Shown: one piece after another, positions 12,061 through 33,046 of the stretch | Position numbering within the stretch: position 1 is the stretch's first letter | How the letters are laid out: each line of letters begins with the position of its first letter | DNA from: Eisenbergiella porci | GTDB lineage: Bacteria > Bacillota > Clostridia > Lachnospirales > Lachnospiraceae | Assembly (NCBI RefSeq): GCF_009696275.1 | Contig: NZ_VUMI01000053.1 | Location: 1-37,883, forward strand | DNA length: 37,883 nt | Direction: 5' to 3' | Position numbers and translations under genes: made by a program | The notes under the pieces: model-generated | The model's input: the letters and a program-made list of their open reading frames with translations, nothing else | What the model was told of the DNA's origin: nothing | The model's database searches: none

Positions 12061-12089
12061 TTGACGCGGCTTTCCGGGAAACATATAAT
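12061..12089 (+). promoter_or_regulatory. Sigma-A promoter of the pyruvate formate-lyase cluster
   Basis: TTGACG at 12061-12066 and TATAAT at 12084-12089 are separated by exactly 17 nt, close to the ideal promoter. It leaves an untranslated leader of about 115 nt before the TTG start of pflB. Confidence 0.8.
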
Positions 12090-12212: not shown

Positions 12213-14264
12213 TTGAGAACAGAATGGAATGGTTTTATAGGCGGTGACTGGGAGCACGAAATCAATGTGCGCGATTTTATCCAGAAGAATTACCACCCTT
12301 ATGACGGAGATGAAGCTTTTCTTGCCGGACCTACACAGAATACCCTGGAGCTTTGGGATGAGGTTCTGGATCTGAGCCGTAAGGAAAGAGAAGCCGGCGG
12401 TGTCCTGGATATGGATACCAAAGTCATTTCCACCATTACGTCCCATGGTCCCGGATATCTTGATAAATCCAAAGAAACTATTGTAGGCCTTCAGACCGAT
12501 GCCCCTTTTAAGCGTTCCCTGCAGCCCTACGGCGGCATCCGTATGGCACAGAAGGCATGTGCTGACAACGGCTATACTTTGGATGCGGATGTGGAGGAAT
12601 TCTTCTCCACCCACAGAAAGACTCATAATGCAGGCGTTTTTGATGCCTATACCCCTGAGATGCGCGCATGCCGCAGCGCCCACATCATTACCGGCCTTCC
12701 GGATGCCTACGGCCGCGGAAGAATTATCGGAGACTACAGAAGAATCGCCCTTTACGGCATCGACCGTCTGATCGAGGACAAGCTGGCACAGAAGGAATCC
12801 ACCGGAAGCACGATGACCGATGATGTAATCCGCCTTCGTGAAGAAATTTCCGAGCAGATCGTTGCCCTGAAAATGATGAAGCAGATGGCGGCATCCTATG
12901 GCTGTGACATTTCAAAACCGGCTGCCAATGTTCAGGAAGCCATTCAGGCAACCTACTTCGGTTATCTTTCCGCAGTAAAGGAACAGAACGGAGCCGCCAT
13001 GTCCCTGGGCCGCACCTCCACCTTCCTTGATATTTATTCAGAACGAGATCTTGCCCTGGGAACCTTTACGGAAGAGCAGATTCAGGAATTTATTGATCAC
13101 TTCATCATGAAGCTGAGAATCATCAAATTTGCACGTACACCGGAATATAACGAGCTGTTCTCCGGCGACCCCGTATGGATTACGGAATCCCTGGCAGGCG
13201 TAGGCGTTGACGGACGCCACATGGCAACAAAGATGTCCTTCCGTTACCTGAATACACTGACCAACCTGGGACCTTCCCCGGAACCCAACCTGACCGTACT
13301 CTGGTCAACCAGGCTGCCTGTTAACTTCAAACGTTACTGCGCGAAGATGTCCATCCAGACTTCTTCCATCCAGTATGAAAATGATGATTTAATGCGCGTT
13401 ATCCACGGCGATGACTACGGCATTGCCTGCTGTGTATCCTCCATGAGAATCGGTAAGGAAATGCAGTTCTTCGGCGCCCGTGCCAATCTGGCAAAATGTC
13501 TGCTTTACGCTCTCAACGGCGGTATCGACGAGAAGACAAGAAAGCAGGTAGGTCCCAAATACCGTAAGTATGAAGGAGATGTACTGGAATACGATAAGGT
13601 AATGGATGCATTCCATGACATGATGGAATGGCTTGCCGGCGTTTATGTTAACACCCTGAACGTTATCCATTATATGCATGACAAATACTGCTATGAAAGA
13701 GCGCAGATGGCTCTTCACGACAGAGACGTACGCCGTTATTTTGCAACCGGCATCGCCGGGCTTTCCGTTGTGGCGGATTCCCTTTCCGCGATTAAATATG
13801 CAAAGGTTGAGCCCATCCGCGACGAGGACGGCATTATTGTAGATTTCAAAACCACCGGTGACTTCCCGAAATACGGAAATGATGATGACCGTGTGGATAC
13901 CATTGCCAGGGAGCTGGTGTCCAGCTTCATGACCATGGTAAGGAGACATCACACCTACAGGGACGGCTTCCCCACCACCTCCGTACTGACCATTACCTCC
14001 AACGTGGTTTACGGAAAGGCAACCGGGGCCACACCTGACGGCCGTAAGGCCGGAGAGCCTTTTGCTCCCGGCGCCAACCCGATGCATGGACGCGACACCC
14101 ATGGCGCGGTAGCTTCCATGTCCTCCGTATCCAAGCTGCCTTTTAAGGATGCACAGGATGGTATTTCCAATACCTTTACCATCATCCCCGGCGCACTTGG
14201 GAAAGAGGATGAGATATTTGCAGGAGACATTGAAATCGACCTTGATACACTGCCTCAGGAGTAA
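12213..14264 (+). CDS. pflB: Pyruvate formate-lyase core protein lacking the glycyl radical domain
   Basis: This 683-residue protein is the catalytic core of formate C-acetyltransferase, which splits pyruvate with CoA into acetyl-CoA and formate. It matches the family from the first residues ([20 protein letters not shown]) through the active-site pair Cys406-Cys407 in [10 protein letters not shown] and the segment [17 protein letters not shown]. It then ends at LDTLPQE, where classical enzymes continue for about 75 residues with the glycyl radical loop. That domain is encoded separately at 14555-14797. The start is a TTG with AGGAGG at ideal distance. The stop codon is followed 14 nt later by the next gene. 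Either the radical subunit acts in trans, as GrcA/YfiD does for damaged PFL, or the gene was split by an event now stabilised. Confidence 0.93.
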
Positions 14265-14278
14265 AAGGAGCTGATTTT

Positions 14279-14485
14279 ATGGATCAACAGGCTATGATAG
14301 ACGATCTGGTCAGGATGCTGGATGCCGGTGCGCAGGAAGGCGTGGGCCATATTAACGTGGCTATTGACGCTTCCCGCCCCGGCGGCAGGAAGGTACAGAC
14401 CGGATGCCCGGAATGCTCGGCCGCACCGCTGGCCTGCAGCGTTCCCACCCTCCACGAGGGTCTTGACAGAACTGAAAACGAATGA
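14279..14485 (+). CDS. Small Cys-containing protein, glycyl-radical-domain-like N-terminus
   Basis: This 68-residue protein lies between the PFL core and the separate glycyl radical protein. Residues 5-30 (MIDDLVRMLDAGAQEGVGHI) resemble the start of the glycyl radical domain, where the neighbour has [20 protein letters not shown]. The rest is different: it contains CPECSAAPLACSVPTLHEG and lacks the radical Gly motif RVSGYAV. AAAAGGAG lies at good distance from its ATG, so it is probably translated. The Cys-rich tail could bind metal or act in redox control, but the function is unknown. A partial duplication of the radical domain that gained a new tail is the simplest origin. Confidence 0.7.
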   Translation: MDQQAMIDDLVRMLDAGAQEGVGHINVAIDASRPGGRKVQTGCPECSAAPLACSVPTLHEGLDRTENE

Positions 14486-14554
14486 TTTATGCTGCTGTTC
14501 CTGCAGGAACGGCTGCTGATTCTTCTCTCCCGAGAAAAGAAAGGAAGGCAAACT

Positions 14555-14797
14555 ATGGAAGCTAACAACGCACAGATTGACAATCTTGTTTCTTTACTGG
14601 ACGGCTATGCTGAAAAAGGCGGCCATCATCTCAACGTCAACGTACTGAACCGTGAAACTCTTCTGGATGCCCAGAAGCACCCGGAAAAATATCCTCAGCT
14701 GACGATCCGTGTATCAGGCTATGCCGTAAACTTCATTAAGCTTACACCGGAACAGCAGGCAGATGTTATTTCCCGTACGTTCCATGAAGCGCTGTAA
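14555..14797 (+). CDS. Separate glycyl radical domain protein (PFL subunit / GrcA-like)
   Basis: This 80-residue protein is the missing C-terminal domain of pyruvate formate-lyase. It holds [21 protein letters not shown], then [18 protein letters not shown], in which the Gly of SGY is the site of the stable radical, then the family end [19 protein letters not shown] precedes the ATG at 14555; an upstream in-frame start at 14489 has no good site. It closely resembles GrcA (YfiD), which in enteric bacteria replaces an oxygen-damaged radical domain. Here, however, it is the only such domain next to a core that lacks one, so it is likely an essential subunit. Its activator is encoded just downstream. 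Confidence 0.9.
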
Positions 14798-14817
14798 TTA
14801 TAATTGTAAGTAAAACG

Positions 14818-14871
14818 GACAGGCCCTGCACGGAAAACCCGCCAAACCACCGGTTTCCCGCAGGGCCTGTC
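14818..14871. terminator. Hairpin between the PFL operon and pflA
   Basis: A 12-bp perfect stem GACAGGCCCTGC/GCAGGGCCTGTC encloses a second stem (CGGAAAACC/GGTTTCCCG, one mismatch). No T tract follows; instead a TATAAT box (14876-14881) follows. It may partly terminate or stabilise the upstream mRNA so that pflA is made in smaller amount. Confidence 0.65.
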
Positions 14872-14925
14872 GTGCTATAATAGGATTAGGAGCAAATGAC
14901 AGCTTTGATAAGCAGGAGGATAATT

Positions 14926-15717
14926 ATGCCAACATCTACGCAGGAAAGCACACCTTCACCGGGAAGAATACATTCCATAGAAAGCTTCGGTACAGTAGAC
15001 GGTCCGGGCGTCAGATTTGTCGTATTTTTGCAGGGATGCCCCATGCGCTGCGCCTACTGCCACAATCCTGATACCTGGGAAATAAATGCGGGGTCTTACA
15101 TTTCTGCAGAACAGATTATGGAAAGCTATGAGCGTAACAAAAGCTTCTACAAGGACGGCGGCATCACGGTAACCGGCGGAGAGCCTCTGCTCCAGCTGGA
15201 TTTTCTGACAGAATTATTCACGCTGGCCAAAAAGGATAATATCCACACCTGTATCGACACCTCCGGAATTCCATTCGCACCTTCCAACAGGGAATGGATG
15301 AAAAAGCTGGATATTCTTCTGGGAATGACCGATTTGGTCATGCTGGACATTAAACATATTGATCCCAAATGCCATAAGGATCTGACCGGCTGCCCGAATG
15401 ACAACATCCTCCGTTTTGCCTGGTATCTGGATAAGAAAAAAGTACCCGTATGGATCCGCCATGTGGTGGTTCCCACCTTAACCGATGATGAAAGCTTCCT
15501 GTACAGACTGGGATGGTTTATAGGAGGGTTGGGTAACCTCAAAGCCCTGGACGTCCTGCCTTACCATACAATGGGAAAAGCAAAGTATGAAAAGCTGGGA
15601 ATTCCCTACCGGCTGAAGGGCATCCCCCCCATGGACAGACCCACTCTTTTGCTCAAAAAGCAGTCGATTCTTAAGGGTATCAAGGACCGGAGGAATCAGA
15701 AGCCGGCTTCATCATAA
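14926..15717 (+). CDS. pflA: Pyruvate formate-lyase activating enzyme (radical SAM)
   Basis: This 263-residue radical SAM enzyme removes a hydrogen from the PFL glycine to generate the radical. It has the CxxxCxxC cluster site as Cys38, Cys42 and Cys45 (GCPMRCAYC), the TVTGGEPLLQ SAM segment (ITVTGGEPLL) and the VLPYHTMGKAKYEKLG C-terminal end typical of PflA. AGGAGG stands before the ATG at 14926; an in-frame ATG at 14896 has no such site. It follows the radical domain gene by 128 nt, with a hairpin in between. Because the radical acceptor is here a free small protein, the activase would dock on that protein rather than on a full-length PFL, which is inference. Confidence 0.95.
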   Translation: MPTSTQESTPSPGRIHSIESFGTVDGPGVRFVVFLQGCPMRCAYCHNPDTWEINAGSYISAEQIMESYERNKSFYKDGGITVTGGEPLLQLDFLTELFTLAKKDNIHTCIDTSGIPFAPSNREWMKKLDILLGMTDLVMLDIKHIDPKCHKDLTGCPNDNILRFAWYLDKKKVPVWIRHVVVPTLTDDESFLYRLGWFIGGLGNLKALDVLPYHTMGKAKYEKLGIPYRLKGIPPMDRPTLLLKKQSILKGIKDRRNQKPASS

Positions 15718-15987: not shown

Positions 15988-16158
15988 ATGGCATATGTAA
16001 TTAGTGACGCTTGTGTAAGCTGCGGAACATGTGAAGGACAGTGTCCTGTTGGCGCTATCTCTGCAGGAGATGGACAGTATGTAATCGACGCCAATACCTG
16101 TATCGAATGTGGTTCCTGTGCAGGAGCTTGCCCTACAGGCGCTATTTCCCAGGAATAA
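15988..16158 (+). CDS. 2[4Fe-4S] ferredoxin
   Basis: This encodes a 56-residue clostridial-type ferredoxin (MAYVISDACVSCG...). It has two CxxCxxCxxxC cluster motifs: Cys9, 12, 15, 19 and Cys38, 41, 44, 48, each followed by Pro as usual. It carries low-potential electrons between enzymes such as pyruvate:ferredoxin oxidoreductase and hydrogenase. AAAGGAGGA lies 9 nt upstream of the ATG. It could supply the reductant for pflA, which needs a reduced cluster, but proximity is the only evidence. Confidence 0.96.
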   Translation: MAYVISDACVSCGTCEGQCPVGAISAGDGQYVIDANTCIECGSCAGACPTGAISQE

Positions 16159-28691: not shown

Positions 28692-28751
28692 AGCCTTATT
28701 ATAAACGTTCATATACAACGAAAACTCCTGATGAAAGAGAGGACTCCCACT

Positions 28752-29825
28752 ATGCAGATGACTTTAAGATGGTACGGCAGCAAATTCGACACCGTAACCC
28801 TGAAACAGATCCGCCAGATTCCCGGTGTAACCGGCGTTATATCCACCCTTTATGATTCCGCCCCCGGAGAAGTCTGGTCCCTGGAAGACATACTTTCTTT
28901 AAAAAAAGAAATTGAGGACGCAGGCCTGCAGCTTGCCGGCATCGAAAGCGTCAATATCCACGACGCCATCAAAACCGGCGCGCCGGAACGGGACATGTAT
29001 ATCGATAACTACATTACCACGCTGGAAAATCTGGGTAAGGCGGATATCCATATGGTATGCTACAATTTCATGCCTGTTTTTGACTGGACAAGAACCGAAC
29101 TTGCCAGAGTGCGCCCGGATGGTTCCACCGTTCTTGCATATACCCAGGAAGCAGTGGACAAACTGAATCCAGAGGATATGTTTGCCTCCATCAGCACAGA
29201 CACCAACGGCAGCATCATGCCCGGCTGGGAACCGGAGCGTATGGAAAAAATCAAAGACCTCTTCGCCATGTATGAAAACATTGACGATGAAAAGCTCTTT
29301 GCCAATCTGAAATATTTCCTGGAACGCATCATGCCCACCTGTGATAAATACGACATCAACATGGCCATTCATCCTGATGACCCCGCCTGGAGCGTATTCG
29401 GCCTCCCCCGAATCATCATTAATAAGGAAAACATCCTCCGCATGATGAAAATGGTAGATAACCCGCACAACGGTGTTACCTTCTGCTCCGGATCCTACGG
29501 CACCAACCTGAACAATGACCTGCCCGATATGATCCGTTCCCTGAAAGGCAGAATCCATTTTGCCCACGTACGCAACCTGAAATTCAACAGTCCCACCGAT
29601 TTTGAAGAATCCGCCCATCTTTCCTCCGACGGCACCTTCGATATGTATGAAATCATGCTGGCCCTTTACGATATCGGCTTTGAAGGCCCCCTCCGCCCCG
29701 ACCACGGCCGCATGATCTGGGATGAGATCGCCATGCCCGGCTACGGACTGTATGACAGGGCCCTTGGCGCAACGTACCTCAACGGCCTGTGGGAAGCTAT
29801 CGTAAAATCCCACAGCCGGAAATAA
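28752..29825 (+). CDS. uxuA: Mannonate dehydratase
   Basis: This 357-residue enzyme dehydrates D-mannonate to 2-keto-3-deoxygluconate. It matches UxuA through MTLRWYGSKFDTVTLKQIRQ, the AIHPDDPAW metal region, CSGSYGTNLNNDLPDMI and HFAHVRNL. The length fits Gram-positive UxuA (~360) rather than the longer enteric form. The ATG at 28752 has GAGAGGA nine nt upstream; the ATG at 28731 has none. The next gene, uxuB, follows after 95 nt with a hairpin in the gap. Confidence 0.95.
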   Translation: MQMTLRWYGSKFDTVTLKQIRQIPGVTGVISTLYDSAPGEVWSLEDILSLKKEIEDAGLQLAGIESVNIHDAIKTGAPERDMYIDNYITTLENLGKADIHMVCYNFMPVFDWTRTELARVRPDGSTVLAYTQEAVDKLNPEDMFASISTDTNGSIMPGWEPERMEKIKDLFAMYENIDDEKLFANLKYFLERIMPTCDKYDINMAIHPDDPAWSVFGLPRIIINKENILRMMKMVDNPHNGVTFCSGSYGTNLNNDLPDMIRSLKGRIHFAHVRNLKFNSPTDFEESAHLSSDGTFDMYEIMLALYDIGFEGPLRPDHGRMIWDEIAMPGYGLYDRALGATYLNGLWEAIVKSHSRK

Positions 29826-29840
29826 GAAATAAAAAAAACT

Positions 29841-29901
29841 GTAACAGTCCAGATAAATGAACTGTTACGGACACCGACCAACCGCTTTCTTATCAAGAAA
29901 G
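29841..29901. promoter_or_regulatory. Two intercistronic hairpins between uxuA and uxuB
   Basis: The first hairpin pairs GTAACAGTCCA with TGAACTGTTAC (one mismatch, 29841-29851 and 29858-29868). The second pairs CTTTCTT with AAGAAAG (29885-29901) just before the uxuB ribosome binding site AAGGAAAC. Neither has a T tract. They may tune mRNA stability. Confidence 0.55.
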
Positions 29902-29920
29902 GCCAAGAAAGGAAACAATC

Positions 29921-31534
29921 ATGGAATTAACACAAAAAGGACTCCTTCAAAAGGAAAGCTGGCAGGCTGCCGGCTACGATCTTCCGCAGTTTGATATTCC
30001 CGCTGTTACACAGCGCACCCTGGAAGCCCCTGAATGGGTTCACTTCGGCGCGGGCAATATTTTCCGTGCCTTCCAGGCAAACGTTGCCCAGCGCCTCCTG
30101 AATCAGGGCATTATGAGCACCGGCCTGATCGCCGCAGAAGGCTATGACTATGAAATCATTGAAAAAATGTACCGTCCCCACGACAATCTTGGTATCCTCG
30201 TCACCCTGAAGGCCGACGGAACCATGGAAAAAACGGTAGTGGGCAGTATTGTGGAATCCCTGACCCTGGACAGCACCAACGCCCGGGAATACGGACGCCT
30301 GAAGGAAATTTTCCGCGCCTCCTCCCTGAAACTGGCCAGCTTCACCATTACAGAAAAGGGCTACAGCCTGGTATACGGCAAAGGCGAACAGCTGCCTGAT
30401 ATTGCATCCGATTTTAAGGAAGGACCGGCCGCACCCAAAAGCTACCTGGGAAAGGTGGTTTCCCTCGTATACGAACGCTTCTGCAGCAACGCTCTTCCCA
30501 TCGCCCTCGTAAGCATGGACAACTGCTCCCACAACGGTGACAAGCTCTATGCCGCAGTCAGCGCCTTTGCGGAAAAATGGGCAGAAAACGGCCTTGTATC
30601 CAGAGATTTTGTCAGCTATATCAATGATAAGGACAGCGTCTCCTTCCCCTGGACCATGATCGATAAGATCACTCCCCGCCCCGATCCTGCGGTTAAGGCC
30701 ATGCTGGAAAAAGACAGCATCGCTGACCTGGATCCCGTCATCACCACAAAAAACACCTACGTTGCTCCCTTTGTCAACGCAGAGGAATGCCAGTATCTCA
30801 TCATTGAAGACGCCTTCCCCAACGGAAAGCTACCTCTGGATCAGTGCGGCATCATCTATACCACCAGGGAAACCGTGGATAAGGTGGAAAAAATGAAGGT
30901 ATGTACCTGCTTAAATCCTCTCCACACCTCCCTCGCCATTTACGGCTGCCTGCTGGGCTACACCCTGATTGCGGAAGAAATGAAAAACCCTCTTCTGAAA
31001 AAAATGGTGGAGGTTATCGGCTACCAGGAGGGACTTCCCGTGGTGGTTAATCCCGGCATCCTCGATCCGAAGCAGTTCATTGACGAGGTGGTAAATAAAC
31101 GTATTCCCAATCCCTTCATGCCGGATACACCGCAGAGAATCGCTACGGACACCTCCCAGAAGCTGCCCATCCGCTTCGGCGAAACCATCAAGGCTTATCT
31201 GCAGAATCCTGACTTAAAGGTGGAAAGCCTGAAAATCATCCCTCTTGTATTTGCAGGCTGGCTCCGCTATCTGATGGCTGTGGATGATCAGGGCAATGTT
31301 TTTGCTCCAAGCGCCGATCCGCTGCTTGATACCGTCCGCCCTTTTGTAGCAGAGTTCCGTCTTGGCGGGCTTCCTCAGGATCTGTCTTCCCTGGATTCCC
31401 TGCTCTCCGATTCCAAAATCTGGGGCGTGGATCTGTTTGAAGCAGGGCTGGCCGATCTTGTTAAGGATTATTTCAGACAGCTGTGCGCCGGTACAGGCGC
31501 CGTAGAACGCACCCTGGAAAAGGCTCTAGGCTGA
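29921..31534 (+). CDS. uxuB: Fructuronate reductase / mannitol dehydrogenase family
   Basis: This 537-residue NAD-dependent long-chain dehydrogenase reduces D-fructuronate to D-mannonate. The N-terminal Rossmann start is HFGAGNIFRAFQA (residues 41-53), and the C-terminal domain includes the Lys/Asn-His catalytic region KMKVCTCLNPLHTSLA. Family members also act on mannitol, tagaturonate or altronate, but the position between uxuA and uxaC fixes the role as fructuronate reductase. AAAGGAAAC precedes the ATG. It is about 50 residues longer than the E. coli enzyme. Confidence 0.93.
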   Translation: MELTQKGLLQKESWQAAGYDLPQFDIPAVTQRTLEAPEWVHFGAGNIFRAFQANVAQRLLNQGIMSTGLIAAEGYDYEIIEKMYRPHDNLGILVTLKADGTMEKTVVGSIVESLTLDSTNAREYGRLKEIFRASSLKLASFTITEKGYSLVYGKGEQLPDIASDFKEGPAAPKSYLGKVVSLVYERFCSNALPIALVSMDNCSHNGDKLYAAVSAFAEKWAENGLVSRDFVSYINDKDSVSFPWTMIDKITPRPDPAVKAMLEKDSIADLDPVITTKNTYVAPFVNAEECQYLIIEDAFPNGKLPLDQCGIIYTTRETVDKVEKMKVCTCLNPLHTSLAIYGCLLGYTLIAEEMKNPLLKKMVEVIGYQEGLPVVVNPGILDPKQFIDEVVNKRIPNPFMPDTPQRIATDTSQKLPIRFGETIKAYLQNPDLKVESLKIIPLVFAGWLRYLMAVDDQGNVFAPSADPLLDTVRPFVAEFRLGGLPQDLSSLDSLLSDSKIWGVDLFEAGLADLVKDYFRQLCAGTGAVERTLEKALG

Positions 31535-31567
31535 TTTTCCGTAAGGAACCGGAAAAGGAGAAAATAC

Positions 31568-33046
31568 ATGAAAGAATTCATGAATGAAGATTTCCTGCTG
31601 ACAACGGAAACGGCACGCCGTCTCTATCACGACTATGCGGAAACGATGCCGATATTTGACTTCCATAACCACCTCAGCGCACAGGAAATATATGAGGATA
31701 TTAATTTTTCCAACATTACACAGGCATGGCTCTACGGCGACCATTATAAATGGCGCGCCATGCGTACCTATGGATTCCCGGAAGAGCTGGTAACAGGCCC
31801 CAAAGGAGACTCCCGCACACCGGAAACCCCAGGTGCAAACCAATCCGGCTGCAACCACGCAGATGCCGGAAGCATGGATTACCGCCGCTTTAGCGCCTGG
31901 GCGGAAACCATTGAAAATTCCATCGGCAATCCTCTCTATCACTGGACACACCTGGAGCTGCAGCGTTATTTCGGCATTACCGAACCGCTTTCCTCTAAAA
32001 CCTGTGATAAGCTTTGGGAGGCCTGCAGCGAAAAGCTCTCCCGGCCGGAATTTTCCGTTCGTAATCTTCTGAAAATGCAGAATGTCAAAGCGCTCTGCAC
32101 CACCAATGACCCCTGCGAGGATCTGGAATATCACCGTAAGCTGCGTGAAGAAGGCTCTTCTGTCCGGGTTCTGCCCACCTTCCGCCCCGACAAAGCCTAT
32201 CTTATCGGGAAAGAAGATTATCCGGCTTACCTAGCCGCACTGGGAAAAGCCTGGGGATATCCCATCAACAGCCTGTCCGATTTAAAGGAGGCCCTCGTTT
32301 CCCGCCTGGATTATTTTATCCGGGAAGGCGGCTGCCTGCTTTCCGACCACAGCCTGGAGGGCGCGCTCTTCGCCCCTTCCACTGATGAGGAAGCACAGGA
32401 AATTTTTGTAAGGCGGATGGCGGGTGCGGCGCTCACCGCAGATGACCGCCGCCGTTTCCAGGGAAATATCCTCACCTTCCTGGGAAAACAGTATGCCGCC
32501 AGAAATATGGCCATGCAGCTTCACATCGGCGCCCTGCGCAGCAATTCCAGCCGGATGCTCCAGAATCTCGGGCCGGATACGGGCTTTGACAGCGTGGATG
32601 ACTTCTGCTATGCGGGCGAACTTTCCGCCCTGCTTGATTCCATGGACCGCACCGACGAGCTACCCAAGACCATCCTCTACTGCCTGAACCAGAGAGATTA
32701 TGAAATGCTTGCCTCCATGTGCGGTAATTTCCAGTCCGCTCCCCACCGTGGAAAAATACAGTTCGGCACTGCCTGGTGGTTCTGTGACAATAAAAGAGGC
32801 ATGGAGGCCCAGCTCGACGTTCTGGCCAACCTGAGCCTGCTGCCAGTGTCAATCGGTATGCTCACCGATTCCCGCAGCTTCCTTTCCTTCCCCCGGCATG
32901 AATATTACCGGCGGATCCTCTGCAATAAAATTGGCAGCTGGGTGGAAGACGGCGAATATCCCTGCCATATGGAATTTCTGGGAAAAATGGTGCAGAATAT
33001 CTGTTATCACAATGCCCTTAAATATTTAACAGGAGCGGATGCCTAG
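31568..33046 (+). CDS. uxaC: Glucuronate isomerase
   Basis: This 492-residue enzyme isomerises D-glucuronate to D-fructuronate (and galacturonate to tagaturonate) and belongs to the amidohydrolase superfamily. The metal-site His pair is in FDFHNHLSAQEIYED (His33 and His35). Other family segments are CTTNDPCEDL, AMQLHIGALRS, TILYCLN and the C-terminal ILCNKIGSWVEDGE. About 25 extra residues (around 79-103, rich in Gly, Pro, Ser and Asn) interrupt the region before RFSAWAETIENSIGNPLYHW, compared with the ~470-residue norm. AAAAGGAG precedes the ATG. It closes the uxuA-uxuB-uxaC operon. Confidence 0.95.
   Translation: MKEFMNEDFLLTTETARRLYHDYAETMPIFDFHNHLSAQEIYEDINFSNITQAWLYGDHYKWRAMRTYGFPEELVTGPKGDSRTPETPGANQSGCNHADAGSMDYRRFSAWAETIENSIGNPLYHWTHLELQRYFGITEPLSSKTCDKLWEACSEKLSRPEFSVRNLLKMQNVKALCTTNDPCEDLEYHRKLREEGSSVRVLPTFRPDKAYLIGKEDYPAYLAALGKAWGYPINSLSDLKEALVSRLDYFIREGGCLLSDHSLEGALFAPSTDEEAQEIFVRRMAGAALTADDRRRFQGNILTFLGKQYAARNMAMQLHIGALRSNSSRMLQNLGPDTGFDSVDDFCYAGELSALLDSMDRTDELPKTILYCLNQRDYEMLASMCGNFQSAPHRGKIQFGTAWWFCDNKRGMEAQLDVLANLSLLPVSIGMLTDSRSFLSFPRHEYYRRILCNKIGSWVEDGEYPCHMEFLGKMVQNICYHNALKYLTGADA

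Follow-up and report, generated by a model that had tools for sequence, protein, structure and literature searches.

The window, a stretch of 37,883 nucleotides from Eisenbergiella porci (NCBI RefSeq assembly GCF_009696275.1, contig NZ_VUMI01000053.1, forward strand), contains five + strand genes in a row that encode a pyruvate formate-lyase (PFL) core, a small cysteine-bearing protein that we call mid, the stand-alone glycyl-radical subunit GrcA3, a PFL activase and a ferredoxin. These genes and the features that surround them are as follows:

12061 to 12089, + strand: promoter-like site (TTGACG-17-TATAAT) upstream of the core gene, 11/12 matches; weak, in a region no richer in such sites than shuffles
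12213 to 14264, + strand: PFL core gene, 683 aa, TTG start; TIGR01255 match, no glycyl-radical domain
14279 to 14485, + strand: mid gene, 68 aa, own AAAGGAG ribosome site; previously unannotated, between the core and GrcA3 genes
14555 to 14797, + strand: gene for the stand-alone glycyl-radical subunit GrcA3, 80 aa, own ribosome site; RVSGYAV with Gly55
14815 to 14872, + strand: strong hairpin between the GrcA3 and activase genes
14926 to 15717, + strand: gene for the PFL-activating radical SAM enzyme, 263 aa; TIGR02493 match (289 bits, cut-off 232)
15988 to 16158, + strand: gene for a 2[4Fe-4S] ferredoxin, 56 aa, downstream of the activase gene

The TTG start of the core gene is preceded by AGAGGAGGAAAATC, and the product scores 1101.3 bits against TIGR01255 (cut-off 994.2), aligning with model positions 2-665 of 744. 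It shares the adjacent catalytic cysteine pair (Cys406-Cys407) with full-length PFL (TIGR01255, E. coli PflB) and with all split and fused rows of our 100-row core alignment, but the radical glycine is missing from the core chain and the radical domain resides on another chain, the 80-aa protein. The core end ALGKED (commonly ALGKED or ALGKDD) aligns with residue 678 of E. coli PflB and is followed by a C-terminal tail of 17 residues. An AlphaFold model of the core reached a pLDDT of 41, probably because the 25 aligned cores were too alike.

The initial annotation had recognized in the 80-aa protein an independent ribosome site and the RVSGYAV loop, and both are borne out: the protein passes the NCBIfam model NF038360, 'autonomous glycyl radical cofactor GrcA3' (165.2 bits, cut-off 158), it falls below the cut-off of TIGR04365 for the GrcA/YfiD spare part (102.6 bits, cut-off 170), and it aligns with about residues 685-759 of E. 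coli PflB. The stand-alone radical protein is already known at the annotation level, as NCBIfam GrcA3, under a family name that, judged from name and scores, implies a spare cofactor. The 290-nt distance given earlier between the core and GrcA3 genes is correct, and the stretch holds the mid gene, which had not been reported. In the window, mid and GrcA3 lie in the same frame with one stop between them, which is not the case in locus L011. The GrcA3 gene is flanked by the strong downstream hairpin (z -2.8 for the 128-nt stretch 14798-14925) and by a possible hairpin on its other side (14486-14554, z -1.5), and these structures could be a means of setting its separate mRNA level. The ferredoxin gene starts at most 600 bp past the activase in 57 of 73 relatives (L040-L119), a pattern found among L124-L159 in L129 only, and the ferredoxin may be an electron donor to the activase.

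The mid protein is not covered by a dedicated Pfam or NCBIfam model. Its N-terminal half shares homology with the opening helix and strand of the glycyl-radical domain (hhalign probability 91, E 1e-6, 31 columns); 26 of 30 mids match GrcA3 weakly (E 0.1), and the mid profile also matches the first part of GrcA3 and of fused PFLs (E 1e-2 to 3e-6). The RVSGYAV glycine loop is absent from the 30 aligned mids, in which a cysteine segment stands in the loop's place; in the window this C-terminal half carries GCPECSAAPLACSVPTLHEGLD / TGCPECSAAPLACSVPTLHEGLD. Seven residues are invariant in the alignment (D15, G23, H24, C46, A52, C53 and P56), and a third cysteine accompanies the two invariant ones in most of these diverse proteins, with a spacing that varies from DC-x4-AC to CACC. 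The last cysteine lies 26 residues past the NV of the strand, and the radical glycine 27 residues past NV. Both TGC and TGT are used as cysteine codons across 79 loci. AlphaFold predicts mid alone as a single helix plus disorder at low confidence (pLDDT 59).

Next, we determined how the split is distributed; the class, family, genus and locus (mid or tail) counts given here and below were made by eye. The initial annotation had seen no complete PFL in the window and had concluded that the small protein would be an obligate subunit, a conclusion that would have fallen with a full-length pflB elsewhere in the genome. Profile searches of the contigs of this genome (6.1 Mb in 149 contigs, listed as 100% complete and 4.9% contaminated) revealed no full-length PFL, and GrcA3 is very probably an obligatory subunit. 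Besides the window, PF02901 matched only C76 (842 aa) and C117 (742 aa), which score 166 and 84 bits against TIGR01255 (cut-off 994) and have GCVE/GCGE at the site of PFL's CC, a difference that we take as a marker telling PFL from other enzymes of the superfamily; contig C73 gave a weak PF01228 match (27.7 bits). Within the genus, a split core accompanied by a stand-alone GrcA3 is present in 11 of 13 genomes and a full-length PFL in none; the two genomes without a split core are G444, with a distant relative only, and G107, without any PFL-family match (97% complete). Among 150 Lachnospiraceae genomes, 54 encode an intact split core, 59 a full-length PFL and 3 both, and several more have fragments; together with the broken cores of G042 and G061, these counts account for the 112 genomes that the program placed over the cut-off. 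In a class-wide sample of 291 genomes, the GrcA3 cut-off is exceeded in 16, and a further 2 contain a small open frame that scores below it; among the matches listed for these 18, a full-length PFL is missing from 17 and present in one, G403. Contig ends truncate the cores of G022 and G303.

The best 80 of 543 confirmed GTDB loci repeat the order core-mid-GrcA3, with the core upstream in 79 (the other lies at a contig end), GrcA3 downstream in all 80 and the activase in 76; the GTDB relatives of the window are mostly titled Lachnospiraceae, and the cultured Kineothrix alysoides (L073) is one carrier of this locus. Full matches to the mid profile occur in 39 of the 150 family genomes, 38 of which have a split core, whole or fragmentary (in G128 the core end is not visible), and the 39th, G006, has no PFL found in a genome that is 67% complete. 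Such matches also occur in 9 of the 291 class genomes, all of them among the 18 with a stand-alone radical protein, and in a phylum sample of 249 genomes (E 1e-8) solely in the window's genome and G236, both Lachnospiraceae. We conclude that the split PFL occurs in many gut Lachnospiraceae and in some related Clostridia, and that the cysteine piece usually accompanies it. Two split cores, those of L133 and L059, are themselves broken by a stop, which may reflect decay, an error or a further split.

To reconstruct the history of the split, a FastTree phylogeny was built from 100 cores (672 columns), including 6 of the 80 GTDB loci and omitting cores shorter than 560 aa (e.g. L128 and L133). One clade of 63 rows (support 100) unites 60 split cores and three fused ones. 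The latter, L206, L207 and L209, group together inside the split clade (99), with a tailed core as their neighbour (98), and lack both mid and a cysteine tail; because they are nested in this way, we read them as re-fusions, a single event seen in three genomes. The split core of L139, likewise with neither mid nor tail, lies outside the main clade, so that the shortest reading comprises three changes: one split, one re-fusion and one independent split. Mid and tail each change 10 times on the best tree, with at least 6 of the changes on well-supported branches. The split into a core and a separate radical protein, as first reported for the window, is thus real and is kept in relatives: it is old and conserved in the lineage, and is neither recent nor an assembly error. 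Stop-codon readthrough joining the core to GrcA3 was considered and rejected: the relative frames differ between loci, and an in-frame stop is taken as chance.

The cysteine element comes in two forms, a protein of its own, mid, or a tail at the C-terminus of the core (for example, DCLDSACRIPNLEEGLD). Among the 54 family genomes whose split core is intact, mid occurs in 32 (in G002 it lies on another contig); 21 lack mid but have a core tail with at least two cysteines, and one, G130, has neither. We fetched 56 split loci, 16 from the class and 40 from the family, and found mid in the locus in 24, a tail in 27, both in none and neither in 5; the family set comprises all 22 mid-less and 18 mid genomes, so the ratio of 24 to 27 is no frequency. 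None of 85 mid-type cores has a cysteine at the tail position; among 39 fused cores, 38 have none there and one has a single cysteine. Fisher's test of mid against tail (0/24 vs 27/32) gives 3e-11, a value that ignores kinship and the selective choice of loci, and on independent tree pairs an equal trend falls short of significance, the two forms changing the same way in 0, oppositely in 3.8 and without difference in 2.2 (median p 0.125). The loci with neither form are L128, L135, L139, L192 and L196; the genome of L196 has mid on another contig and that of L135 also encodes a full-length PFL. With 5 of the 56 split loci showing neither form, the cysteine element is not an absolute requirement.

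The conversion of one form into the other can be followed within the window's own genus, where mid is present in 7 of the 11 split loci and a tail in 4 (the window included in the count). In three of the tailed loci (L239, L240 and L242), DNA alignment shows that about 200 nt were lost, including the core stop and the N-terminal half of mid, and the last codons of mid (SCCAPTLHEGLDREE) remain on the core; the fourth, L244, ends in DCSTAQSACSVPTLHEGLDREE with a different junction. A deletion within this genus turned mid into a core tail. Because the tails produced by this deletion lack the N-terminal half of mid, a tethered motif can do without this radical-domain-like half, suggesting that the role of the half is to deliver the cysteine motif to the core. 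Some core tails are much reduced (DCACCEPN, GCCEDNID). From these comparisons we conclude that the cysteine element belongs to PFLs whose radical domain is supplied in trans.

Three other accounts of these genes can be set against the evidence above. That GrcA3 is only a spare part for another, complete PFL that acts as the main enzyme would agree with the role of GrcA/YfiD in E. coli and with the occurrence of both forms in 3 of 150 family genomes and in G403, but a full-length PFL was found neither in the window's genome nor in any of the 13 genus genomes, which contradicts this account here unless a PFL lies in an unassembled gap, and we consider it extremely improbable. Still less credible, to the point of being negligible, is a recent frameshift, sequencing error or misassembly: the core and GrcA3 do lie in one frame with a single stop between them in some loci (L131), but this is contradicted by the recurrence of the split in 79 of the best 80 of 543 GTDB loci, in 11 of the 13 genomes of the genus and throughout one deep clade. 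An F-x-G-D-like extension (a loose pattern) closes 83 of 85 mid-type and 18 of 26 tail-type cores, and F-[AST]-G-[DE] occurs in 0 of 39 fused cores. Finally, mid might be a decaying, functionless duplicate of GrcA3, as the homology of its N-terminal half and its absence from 32 of the 56 fetched loci would allow; the conservation of the C-terminal half across 30 family genomes with both cysteine codons in use, the cysteine tail on the core in 27 of those 32 mid-less loci, and the origin of the genus tail as a remnant of mid all speak against decay and leave it very improbable.

The nearest known systems are E. coli GrcA/YfiD and phage T4 Y06I, in which a small stand-alone glycyl-radical protein likewise completes a PFL without its own radical domain. 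GrcA3 shares with GrcA/YfiD the RVSGYAV loop and the type of activase, but the E. coli protein repairs an oxygen-damaged complete enzyme, and searches of the window's genome revealed no complete PFL. Andorfer et al. (2021; PMC8683613) report that truncated E. coli PFL (tPFL, residues 1-695) binds YfiD too weakly to measure and acquires 32-fold less radical than oxygen-cleaved PFL, although it is fully active once activated, and propose residues 696-733 of PFL as a recognition element with YfiD. Because tPFL binds YfiD so weakly, some additional means of recognition should be needed by a split core. The window's core is made near tPFL length, a length that E. coli YfiD binds poorly, and GrcA3, at 80 aa, is missing the disordered 60-residue N-terminal half of YfiD (PMC8683613); with a natural core cut near the tPFL site and a radical subunit lacking that half, one would expect a substitute recognition element. 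By analogy with E. coli, the candidates are mid, which is similar to the beginning of the 696-733 element, and the core tail. The suggestion that GrcA3 offers the activase a free small substrate is doubtful in this light, since free E. coli YfiD showed no detectable activation in the absence of cleaved PFL (PMC8683613).

We propose, with a probability of roughly 0.62, that this PFL is obligatorily split into the core, GrcA3 and a third, cysteine-bearing element that acts at the radical slot. The direct basis of this reading is the gene parts, their conservation, the finding of no full-length PFL, the alternation of mid and tail and the loss of the element in the re-fused lineage. Assembly would occur in trans: the core would provide substrate binding and the cysteine pair, the activase would install the glycyl radical on Gly55 of the 80-aa subunit, and GrcA3 would occupy the core's vacant radical-domain slot (E. 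coli 685-759) and pass the radical to the cysteine pair. The N-terminal half of mid mimics the helix and strand of the radical domain and so probably docks in or beside the same slot; as a C-terminal core tail the element would be tethered, making the targeting half unnecessary. We infer that the cysteine element is active at the slot when the radical subunit is missing or is being taken up, and that it might recognize or hand over the radical subunit, the role proposed for E. coli 696-733 with YfiD, and might keep thiols at the position meant for the glycyl loop. The conservation of the cysteines hints at a role beyond docking. A bolder version, which we offer tentatively and regard as rather less likely than its opposite, is a two-part PFL whose radical subunit is exchanged on and off the core under a dedicated cysteine gate occupying the empty slot, a gate that would have evolved with the split, moved between mid and tail, and been discarded on re-fusion.

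What the cysteines do is the point on which other explanations compete most closely with the obligatorily split, three-component PFL. They could act as a radical-safety or redox gate, either with thiols that quench an orphan glycyl radical or with a disulfide, formed with Cys406/407 or with each other, that closes the empty site under oxygen and reopens it on reduction. Such a role fits the two cysteines invariant in 30 diverse mids and the third present in most, the finding of the element only in PFLs with a separate radical subunit and its absence from the three re-fused cores, the lack of cysteine at this place in 38 of 39 fused cores (a single one in the other), and the near coincidence of the last cysteine, 26 residues past NV, with the radical glycine at 27. 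Against it stand the variable cysteine spacing, from DC-x4-AC to CACC, and the strictly anaerobic life of most hosts. We consider a thiol gate or quencher somewhat unlikely, yet it competes seriously with a docking role. The cysteines might instead bind a metal or an iron-sulfur cluster, with mid as the counterpart of the small subunits of HPAD, benzylsuccinate synthase (BSS) and MASS, systems in which a glycyl radical enzyme is likewise accompanied by a small accessory protein that carries cysteines. In these enzymes the radical domain stays on the large subunit. Their small subunits bind [4Fe-4S], or a single Fe in MASS-delta, and hold the clusters in a HiPIP-like fold (PMC12358834). Mid has a radical-domain-like N-terminal half and only 2-3 conserved cysteines per chain, and none of the 30 mids matched a Pfam or NCBIfam model for iron-sulfur subunits at E 0.1; we judge metal or cluster binding to be improbable.

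The closest solved chains to the core are PDB 38la and 38lb, both named 'Formate acetyltransferase' and of 687 and 739 residues. Neither was among the 34 PDB sequences found with the radical subunit, so they have no detectable radical domain, be they natural or truncated, and neither was found with the mid protein or the mid profile; matches of the tail and mid profiles did not reach the unmatched end of 38lb. Given these two entries, the split itself may be known to structural workers. A natural split PFL is not described in the listed titles and abstract openings from the open-licence full-text literature, although it may be in print elsewhere, and 'GrcA3' is absent as a term from that literature; the mid protein and its alternation with the core tail were not met there or in comparisons with Pfam, NCBIfam and the PDB.

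PFL is a main source of formate in anaerobic fermentation, and the split form is present in about a third of the sampled Lachnospiraceae (54/150). A natural pair of core and radical subunit would allow radical installation, radical transfer and oxygen damage to be studied on separate chains, a task that E. coli tPFL and YfiD perform poorly, and the alternation of one short cysteine motif between cis and trans points to an unrecognized accessory function of glycyl radical enzymes.

Several related small proteins were encountered away from PFL loci. Some split-PFL genomes (L224, L226, L229, L230, L231, L232 and L235) have a further GrcA3-like stand-alone gene elsewhere, as if it were a spare radical subunit. 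Mid genes located away from PFL occur at L033/L234 and L032, beside what are presumably a MoxR-like ATPase gene in one case and a FliY-like gene in the other. Another group of PFL-distant small proteins from Lachnospiraceae (L220, L222, L223, L227, L228, L233 and L236) combines a mid-like N-terminal half, IDDMIAFLDG..GVSRLKV, with a YHHGRCDVGSPWA-like end, and a third kind (L221 and L225), unlinked to PFL, has a similar N-terminal half and ends in CCNMYGRP..LLDMYTDMNAG; the proteins of L220 and L221 have no NCBIfam match. Elsewhere in the window, positions 28731-33046 contain three genes that we take to belong to a hexuronate-like pathway (mannonate dehydratase, fructuronate reductase and glucuronate isomerase).
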